Virus record (IMG/VR): IMGVR_UViG_3300048115_000506
Span: 1-20,265 of that record
Source: a virus
Strand: one strand, 5' to 3'
Length of the DNA stretch: 20,265 bases
The position numbers and the translations under genes were made by a program. The notes beneath the pieces were generated by a model, which worked only from the letters and a program-made list of their open reading frames with translations, had not been told where the DNA came from and made no database searches. Below are positions 15,891-17,303 of the stretch, one piece after another (the first letter of the stretch is position 1; each line of letters opens with the position of its first letter).

Positions 15891-16122
15891 TATTTCAGAG
15901 GTTCGAGTGCCGTTTAATTGGGTACAGTTTGTATTTATTATTGGTAGCGTTATCTCAGCTACTTTTACGGTAACTAATATTTACAATCAAATAGAATTAG
16001 ACAGAGTTTATCTGAATAAGATGGAAGAGAAAATACAATCAATGGAAAAAGACCTCAACCGTAGAATTGACGTAAAAACCGACAGAAACCGCGCTTTGAT
16101 AGAAAAAATGACCAAAAATTAA
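15883..16122 (+). CDS. Small membrane coiled-coil protein, spanin- or holin-accessory-like
   Basis: I place the start at GTG 15883, which overlaps the holin stop. An in-frame TTG at 15865 would add six residues. The 79-aa product has one membrane helix (about residues 12-31, VQFVFIIGSVISATFTVTNI) and a heptad-rich outer part (LDRVYLNKMEEKIQSMEKDL). The layout is that of an inner-membrane spanin subunit, but no outer-membrane lipoprotein partner is visible nested or downstream. It is the last gene before the strong terminator at 16209-16255. Confidence 0.6.
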   Translation: MNNISEVRVPFNWVQFVFIIGSVISATFTVTNIYNQIELDRVYLNKMEEKIQSMEKDLNRRIDVKTDRNRALIEKMTKN

Positions 16123-16208: not shown

Positions 16209-16255
16209 AAAGACTAGGCTTTGTTTTCAAGAATTTTCAGCTTAGTCTTTTTTTT
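16209..16255 (+). terminator. Strong Rho-independent terminator ending the late operon
   Basis: AAAGACTAGGCT (16209-16220) pairs with AGCTTAGTCTTT (16239-16250), a 12-bp stem with one G-U. It runs into a T8 tract (16248-16255). The loop is 18 nt. It closes the tail-head-lysis transcription unit. Confidence 0.9.
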
Positions 16256-16282
16256 ATGCCTTAAATATAAAAAATGTATAAT

Positions 16283-16319
16283 TATATTTGCACAATAAAA
16301 AATAATATCTTTATATTTG
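16283..16319 (+). promoter_or_regulatory. Tandem TATATTTG boxes, promoter of the candidate RNA/KilA-N unit
   Basis: Two exact TATATTTG boxes occur at 16283-16290 and 16312-16319. The TTTG of the first (16287-16290) lies 21 nt before the second, so it can serve as the -33 element of the downstream promoter. Predicted transcription starts at about 16325-16328. GC is about 15% here, against 40% in the next 250 nt. Confidence 0.7.
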
Positions 16320-16324
16320 CTTCG

Positions 16325-16574
16325 GAATATTTTTATCGGGAGGAAACAACGTTTGGGATATTCTAAGAAACAAGCTACAAAGGGACTGCGATAGCTTGAT
16401 TGTGAGCCGAAAAATTACCACAACGCAGAAAACACAAGTTAGTTTAAAAAGTAATTGAGCGCGTTTAATCTTGTAAAATCGCGCACCCGTTGAAAGCCTC
16501 GACGTCTGACGAATAAATAAGACAAAAGGAAACAGGGTTTTTAGGTACGCTCTAGGGCAACCTATACCCTTTTC
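16325..16574 (+). ncRNA. Candidate structured non-coding RNA or attenuator leader, no known family recognised
   Basis: This 250-nt stretch has 101 G/C in 250 (16321-16570), about 40%, against 15% and 21% in the flanking 65-70 nt. It has no ATG. It starts at a strong promoter and ends in a hairpin with T4. Helices I can draw: GAATAT 16325-16330/16358-16363; CAAGCTA 16371-16377 with TAGCTTG 16392-16398 (7 bp); CTGCG 16386-16390 with CGCAG 16424-16428, continuous on its 3' side with TTGTG 16400-16404/CACAA 16419-16423. The second and third interleave and so form a pseudoknot. Further stems are GCGCG 16459-16463/CGCGC 16480-16484, CGTTG 16488-16492/CGACG 16500-16504 and the 3' terminator stem. 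It does not look like tRNA, tmRNA, RNase P RNA, SRP RNA or a group I intron core. It could act in trans, or control the KilA-N gene like c4-type or attenuator systems of other phages. Confidence 0.55.
16534..16574 (+). terminator. Terminator-like hairpin at the 3' end of the candidate RNA
   Basis: AGGGT (16534-16538) pairs with ACCCT (16566-16570). TAGGT (16542-16546) pairs with ACCTA (16560-16564). T4 follows (16570-16573). The T-run is short, so read-through into the KilA-N gene is likely and could be regulated. No other promoter is visible for that gene. Confidence 0.55.
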
Positions 16575-16593
16575 ACACCTCTTAATCTTCTAA

Positions 16594-16608
16594 ATAAGTA
16601 AAACTTAT
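16594..16608. promoter_or_regulatory. Short perfect inverted repeat upstream of the KilA-N gene
   Basis: ATAAGT-AAA-ACTTAT is a perfect 6-bp inverted repeat between the RNA terminator and the KilA-N start. It could be an operator or a small RNA hairpin. AT-rich repeats of this size also arise by chance. Confidence 0.3.
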
Positions 16609-16658
16609 AGTACTAATATAATAACCGAAAAAACAAAAAAAAGGTGAAAACAAATAAA

Positions 16659-17267
16659 ATGATGTTGCGAAAAATGGGTGAATTTCAAGTAACACAAAGA
16701 ACGAAAGACGGAATGTTTAACGCTACGACCTTGCTAAAGCAATGGAACGAAACAAAAGGAATGAAAAAAGACGTTAAAGATTTTCTAGTAAACAAAAACA
16801 CTAAAGAATTTATTTCAGAACTTATAAGCCAGAATTATAATAGGGGTAATTCCCCCTATTTAAGTACAAGAGGTAAAAATGGGGGAACATGGATGCACCC
16901 TTACTTATTTATAAAGTTTGCAATGTGGATAAATCCTAAGTTTGAACTTCAAGTGATAAAATTCGTACACGATGAACTTATAAAATACAGGCACGAGGCC
17001 GGAGATAATTATTTAATACTTGGCCAATCATTGCAGAAACTTGACAAACAAAACTACAAAGAGGTAGCTACAGCGATAAATTATATCGTATTCAATAAAA
17101 AATCGAAGGATTTAAGACAAACAGCAACGGCCGAGCAATTAACAGAACTTACAGACGTAGAAAAGAAAATATCATTTTTGATCGATATGGAACAAGTTAC
17201 AAAACACGATCAATTAATGAGGGTACTACGAAGAATGTACGCTTTGAAGTATGTAACACCTTTTTAA
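16659..17267 (+). CDS. KilA-N domain protein, putative antirepressor
   Basis: A 202-aa product with an N-terminal KilA-N DNA-binding domain. The run DGMFNATTLLKQWNETKG … KDFLVNKNTKEFISELI … GGTWMHPYLFIKFAMWINPK … FELQVIKFVHDELIKY contains the landmark W-M-H-P-x-L-x-I-x-F-A-M-W-h-x-P-x-F-E motif. The C-terminal 100 residues are helical (DVEKKISFLIDMEQVTKHDQ), probably for oligomerisation. KilA-N proteins in phages act as antirepressors or early regulators. A GTG frame opens at 16644, but I prefer ATG 16659 (or 16662) because AAAGGTG then lies 13-19 nt upstream. The gene is preceded by the candidate structured RNA and followed by a hairpin at 17275-17300. Confidence 0.85.
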   Translation: MMLRKMGEFQVTQRTKDGMFNATTLLKQWNETKGMKKDVKDFLVNKNTKEFISELISQNYNRGNSPYLSTRGKNGGTWMHPYLFIKFAMWINPKFELQVIKFVHDELIKYRHEAGDNYLILGQSLQKLDKQNYKEVATAINYIVFNKKSKDLRQTATAEQLTELTDVEKKISFLIDMEQVTKHDQLMRVLRRMYALKYVTPF

Positions 17268-17274
17268 AAAAAAG

Positions 17275-17303
17275 AACGCCTAAGAATTAACCCAGGCGTT
17301 TCA
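17275..17303 (+). terminator. Hairpin after the KilA-N gene
   Basis: AACGCCT (17275-17281) pairs perfectly with AGGCGTT (17294-17300). The following bases, TCACAAAA, hold only a weak T-run. The A8 tract before the stem gives a proper T-run only on the minus strand. It is probably a terminator that may work in both directions. Confidence 0.6.

Follow-up and report, generated by a model that had tools for sequence, protein, structure and literature searches.

What is the role of a non-coding stretch of about 255 letters that lies directly before the KilA-N gene of a virus of Bacteroidota bacteria, and does it act as an RNA? The best reading of the data presented here is that of a structured, so far unrecognized leader RNA placed before KilA-N, and the stretch would probably be an RNA switch limiting this gene. 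The window, i.e., the whole stretch of DNA that was analysed, is a 20,265-base linear virus record. Tape-measure, protease, portal and lysis-region genes occupy it up to position 16122, nearly all of them on the + strand. Next come a T-run hairpin and an AT-rich gap that contains two TATATTTG boxes; the candidate RNA and KilA-N follow, and behind them lie another hairpin, one more TATATTTG box (17414) and a series of small and recombination-type genes (Table 1). The first hairpin is absent from the terminator pattern scan because the scan takes loops of 3-8 only. The start of KilA-N was set at GTG 16644 since the MKT start is invariant among its relatives, and its presumed nature as an antirepressor is read from the KilA-N domain and family name. 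Located between the late gene block and the one after it, with terminator and promoter surroundings of its own, the leader together with KilA-N would constitute a separate transcription unit. Furthermore, in phage L016, a relative by capsid protein (68%), neither KilA-N nor the leader is present between the lysis genes and the apparent counterparts (matched by eye) of the next small genes, so that the two seem to be gained or lost together.

Table 1. Features of the KilA-N locus, with positions in the window.
Feature	Positions	Strand	Basis
Hairpin AAGACTA..TAGTCTT then T run; probable late/lysis operon terminator	16210-16255	+	direct reading
Bacteroidota-type promoter TTTG-N21-TATATTTG; second TATATTTG at 16283-16290	16287-16319	+	bipartite pattern match
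Candidate leader RNA, 40% GC, without ATG, non-coding	16320-16575	+	composition and codon-usage scripts
Compact H-type pseudoknot	16371-16428	+	stem search and shuffles
Pseudoknot stem 1, 7 bp, CAAGCTA/TAGCTTG	16371-16377/16392-16398	+	
Pseudoknot stem 2, 5 bp, CTGCG/CGCAG	16386-16390/16424-16428	+	
Hairpin inserted in the pseudoknot, TTGTG/CACAA	16400-16404/16419-16423	+	
Candidate GCGCG/CGCGC hairpin	16459-16484	+	direct reading
Hairpin then TTTTCAC; candidate weak intrinsic terminator or attenuator	16529-16574	+	fold z -2.27
KilA-N protein, 207 aa, GTG start	16644-17267	+	PF04383, E 1.7e-21; alignment of relatives
Hairpin AACGCCT..AGGCGTT 3′ of KilA-N; terminator-scoring on the - strand	17275-17300	.	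pattern scan

A preliminary description of this DNA had pointed out a GC-rich block between AT-rich flanks, free of ATG and bracketed by a promoter and a hairpin with four Ts, and each of these traits was recovered. The GC content goes from 14.5% (16258-16319) to 40.2% in the leader and back to 22.1% (16576-16643), and there is no ATG within 16320-16640. A GC excess as large occurs in 20% of comparable non-coding gaps; the boundaries of the jump coincide with the promoter at one end and with the hairpin at the other. The codon-usage score of the leader is 4.2, which 289 of 300 shuffles equal or exceed, against 10-25 for the true genes of the window; being below both shuffles and genes, the leader is non-coding. 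At its 5′ side, the box at 16312-16319 is accompanied by TTTG at 16287, as in the TTTG/TAnnTTTG consensus of Bacteroidota promoters. The pattern TTTG-N19..22-TAnnTTTG has this single match in the window, compared with an expectation of 1.2 in shuffles; such a match carries little weight by itself, and what counts for the promoter is that it lies between genes, downstream of a terminator. No further TAnnTTTG box exists on the + strand between it and KilA-N. At the 3′ side, the hairpin with T4 (-15.9 kcal/mol, 6 of 200 shuffles equally good) is the best local fold element of the leader. As a whole, the leader shows no extra fold stability with respect to shuffles (z of -0.36 for the + strand and +0.63 for the - strand). 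The additional 5-bp stems mentioned in the preliminary description do not exceed chance either.

The interleaved stems proposed from the first reading are indeed present and interleave in the way described; judged as any interleaved pair, they are ordinary. The best such pair anywhere in the leader (261 nt) has a p of 0.46, which becomes 0.066 within a 160-nt stretch and 0.004 under the limits of a compact H-type knot (8 nt in loop 1 and a single nucleotide at the junction), the last value being optimistic because these limits were set after the candidate had been seen. In this geometry, the loop-3 hairpin stacks on stem 2. The H-type score of the candidate is equalled or beaten nowhere else in the window, both strands considered; across 1.7 Mb of other loci, likewise on both strands, 100 places attain it, 26 of them non-coding, and several of these 26 are located within 280 nt upstream of KilA-N. 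The knot terminates in CGCAG, followed by AAAACACA, and the terminator stem is not one of its stems; the best pairing of the terminal hairpin loop with upstream sequence is GAGCG/CGCTC, of 5 bp. A 5′ hairpin presenting segment 1 as its loop is absent in the window.

Is this RNA found elsewhere? Neither ARAGORN nor Rfam, at gathering or permissive thresholds, matched the leader to tmRNA, tRNA, 6S or any other Rfam family, and blastn against phage and plasmid collections gave nothing. About 1,190 whole-genome searches in Bacteroidota (class, family and order of the KilA-N carriers) returned weak matches only, and those whose place was read sit inside genes, hence by chance; an exact-pattern match in viral contigs, one 18-mer in a repeat-protein gene, was equally attributed to chance. 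Searches with the neighbouring proteins found no close relative spanning the leader region. The preliminary description had made its proposal depend on conservation beside other KilA-N genes, and in about 95 loci the sequence of the window is not kept; as the leader is without a homologue, its own stems are not open to covariation. What stands of the proposal of an unrecognized structured RNA is the lack of coding signal, the promoter-to-hairpin arrangement, the lack of an Rfam match and the existence of knotted leaders in other loci; the conservation of sequence does not.

These other leaders come from that set of about 95 loci, all with KilA-N of the same subfamily, which were taken from viral contigs, genomes and named phages; 25 of their upstream regions were read. 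A recurrent plan appears in the regions read: two long stems ordered 1-2-1′-2′, with 2′ continuing as a T run immediately ahead of the start of KilA-N, as in L036 (ACTTCACTCC / AAGTCGGATAA / GGAGTGAAGT / TTATCCGACTT) and L003 (GGACTGGC / ATCCGCTTC / GCCAGTCC / GAAGCGGAT). In the 160 nt before KilA-N of dereplicated loci, strong interleaved stems (p<=0.01 against dinucleotide shuffles) were found in 15 of 76 cases, versus 2 of 103 control gaps, taken upstream of other genes where a non-coding gap is present (Fisher p 1e-4). Among the 52 loci not read beforehand, nine reach the lowest possible p. Some of the control positives also precede phage regulators, namely Rha in L010 and, in L103, a BRO-N gene that follows a c4-2 RNA. 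Moreover, the loop of the terminator pairs with upstream sequence (p<=0.05) in 7/15 terminators before KilA-N, versus 21/262 other terminators. The best knotted leaders are promoter-pseudoknot-terminator units of about 100 nt, ending 8-30 nt before the start codon, in which the terminator is one stem of the knot; a 5′ hairpin with segment 1 as loop is supported only in L054, L055 and L063 (p 0.02-0.025). Between L054 and L057 both helices are kept with both sides changed (GTCAGAGC/GCTCTGAC vs GTGAGAGC/GCTCTCAC for one, AATCCATAATC/GATTATGGATT vs CCCCTTAATCG/CGATTGAGGGG for the other), and a MAFFT alignment of ten knotted leaders leaves the helices out of register. The Rfam scan of the knotted leaders gave zero matches. 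Altogether, the data support an association of KilA-N genes with pseudoknotted leader RNAs, and the new observation is that knotted leaders unrecognized by Rfam stand before many KilA-N genes of related viruses. This enrichment concerns the leaders of other phages and backs the window element only by analogy.

The same loci contain several other RNAs. A permuted tmRNA-like gene (RF04321, 58 bits) lies upstream of KilA-N in a viral contig (L038, 2177-2382), and ARAGORN calls a tmRNA downstream of KilA-N in L064 (4073-4405, tag GKTISLFNEPVRLAA) and L028 (5912-6272). A tRNA-like mini-domain followed by a three-stem pseudoknot precedes KilA-N in L103 (2890-2975) and L031 (3880-3975), and Rha in L010 (2500-2600); in the three cases the mini-domain consists of the T arm and acceptor, without D or anticodon arm, and ARAGORN called no tRNA. 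In an arrangement that resembles the P4 and c4 loci, a segment of 7-10 nt (A) has its complement in a hairpin loop (B) and a second copy at a start codon (C); it is found before a Rha-type antirepressor gene (L084, 5454-5645) and before a small ORF and KilA-N (L049, 2508-2700), and Rfam matches it in none of the scanned loci. Two loci from Bacteroidota phages or prophages have a c4-2 RNA (RF02944) immediately 5′ of a BRO-N antirepressor gene (L011, 5547-5627; L103, 1047-1122); a c4-2-like RNA (ACTGCGC..GCGCAGTTTTTTT) before another BRO-N gene (L079, 1750-1880) is below the Rfam gathering score. Finally, a HEARO RNA (RF02033) occurs in a human gut phage scaffold (L012, 2420-2661).

For the window itself, we infer transcription, partial termination and control of KilA-N by the leader, and we would give about an even chance to the precise reading in which 16320-16575 is a transcribed 5′ leader attenuating KilA-N by means of a pseudoknot and a partial stop at the T4 hairpin. 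RNA polymerase would begin right after 16319, the leader of the transcript would fold into the compact pseudoknot, and transcription would halt part of the time at the terminal hairpin, releasing a small RNA of about 250 nt, while read-through past the hairpin would give the KilA-N message. The leader could in this manner hold KilA-N low and permit its release in the lytic phase, as an attenuation in cis. The released RNA might also pair with other copies of the leader, as the P4 CI RNA does with seqA/seqC, its action in trans being a conjecture. In favour of the attenuator reading are the lack of coding signal, the promoter and the T4 hairpin at the two ends, the compact knot unique in the window, the absence of both leader and gene from L016 and the frequency of strong interleaved stems before KilA-N in other phages. 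Against it, four Ts make a weak terminator, there is no homologue, the whole-leader fold is ordinary, the significance of the knot is tied to limits chosen post hoc and the layout departs from that of the leaders in other phages. In our reading, the window element would do the same kind of job as the other KilA-N leaders, as a leader/attenuator that is longer and divergent; it is not a proven member of their 100-nt group.

The stretch could also be an ordinary long 5′ untranslated region between the terminator and KilA-N, whose stems would be due to chance and would have no specific regulatory structure. The whole-leader fold, the p of 0.46 for any interleaved pair, the lack of conservation and the frequency of an equal GC excess in comparable gaps are all consistent with it; however, the compact pseudoknot is the best of the window, the GC jump matches promoter and hairpin at its two ends, and other KilA-N leaders are structured far more often than controls. 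We regard this reading as rather doubtful.

A different role would be that of a trans-acting immunity RNA of the c4 or P4 CI kind: the released leader would pair with leader or start-codon segments of incoming related phages, silencing their KilA-N, and the divergence of leaders would reflect immunity groups. In the leaders of other KilA-N phages the sequence changes fast and the pairing is kept, the same phages have c4-2 RNAs ahead of BRO-N genes, the C segment lies at the start codon in L084 and L049, and in the window TAGCTTG (16392) can pair either with CAAGCTA (16371) or, via one G-U, with CAAGTTA (16435). Nevertheless, the window has no c4 or c4-2 match, its fragment carries no recognized repressor or integrase that would indicate temperate life, and antisense pairing between the leader and the start region of KilA-N, tried as a candidate, was rejected as not significant (p 0.24); we consider this role unlikely. 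Just behind the terminal hairpin, TTTTCACACCT (16570-16580) can pair with AGGTGAAAA (16642-16650) at the KilA-N start, and this pairing is not significant either. In a broader and similarly improbable version, Bacteroidota phages would widely control KilA-N by RNA immunity of the P4/c4 kind, exerted from pseudoknot-terminator leaders, and the window would hold an enlarged attenuator that is also a trans-acting immunity RNA; leader sequences would then diversify freely because only self-complementarity matters.

An element acting as DNA (operator array, replication origin or attachment site) would agree with the position at the junction of the late and next gene blocks and with the two TATATTTG boxes spaced 29 bp apart, yet 16320-16575 has no tandem or operator-like repeats and is GC-richer, not AT-richer, than its flanks, so that we hold it very improbable. 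A gene for a small protein that starts in an unusual way, or a gene remnant, is hardly credible, since its one 50-codon, ATG-less open frame was rejected on codon use below shuffles and on the lack of PHROG and phage tblastn matches.

If KilA-N genes are commonly guarded by knotted leaders, they would offer a testable RNA mechanism for lysis-lysogeny control and mutual exclusion in Bacteroidota phages. The present loci would be the seed of a new family of RNAs that escapes searches by sequence, since its members preserve base pairing and not the bases themselves.

Antirepressors under the control of RNAs have been described in a few enterobacterial phages and in the c4 families, and processing by RNase P from a precursor is a trait of c4 and c4-2 RNAs. 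The c4 RNA derives from a leader before a phage antirepressor-type gene, and its a′ and b′ loops pair with the target start region, where small changes shift specificity (PMC5320573). Like c4 and c4-2 (RF01695, RF02944; P1, P7), the candidate of the window stands directly upstream of an antirepressor-type gene, with KilA-N 70 nt further on; unlike them, it fits no c4 covariance model, its loops are not significantly complementary to the gene start, and it is longer than the 77 nt of c4. In P22, too, an antirepressor gene is controlled by an RNA, sar (PMC12197685). It is an antisense RNA to the start region of the ant mRNA, whereas the candidate is on the same strand, upstream of its gene.

In type III toxin-antitoxin systems, a pseudoknot RNA (ToxI-like), a terminator and a protein gene are under a single promoter. 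The window shares this order, but it has no tandem antitoxin repeats, and KilA-N is not a ToxN-type nuclease.

With the leaders of other Bacteroidota KilA-N genes, the window has in common the succession of TAnnTTTG promoter, interleaved stems, T-run hairpin and KilA-N. It differs in length (255 nt, about 2.5 times their ~100 nt), in that its knot and terminator are separate parts while theirs are joined, and in the 70 nt between hairpin and start, as compared with 8-30. In P4, pairing of the CI RNA with seqA and seqC leads to premature termination, and IsrK of Gifsy-1 is a prophage leader that is either terminated or read through (PMC4825925). The window resembles both as an untranslated leader with internal complementary segments, which in those systems govern premature termination before lytic genes, and departs from P4 in lacking a clear seqA-seqB-seqC triple: the third copy, CAAGTTA, needs its G-U, and the search for exact-copy triples placed none of the window among its best 60. 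By analogy, c4 on one side and P4 CI and IsrK on the other could serve as models for how the leader of the window works.
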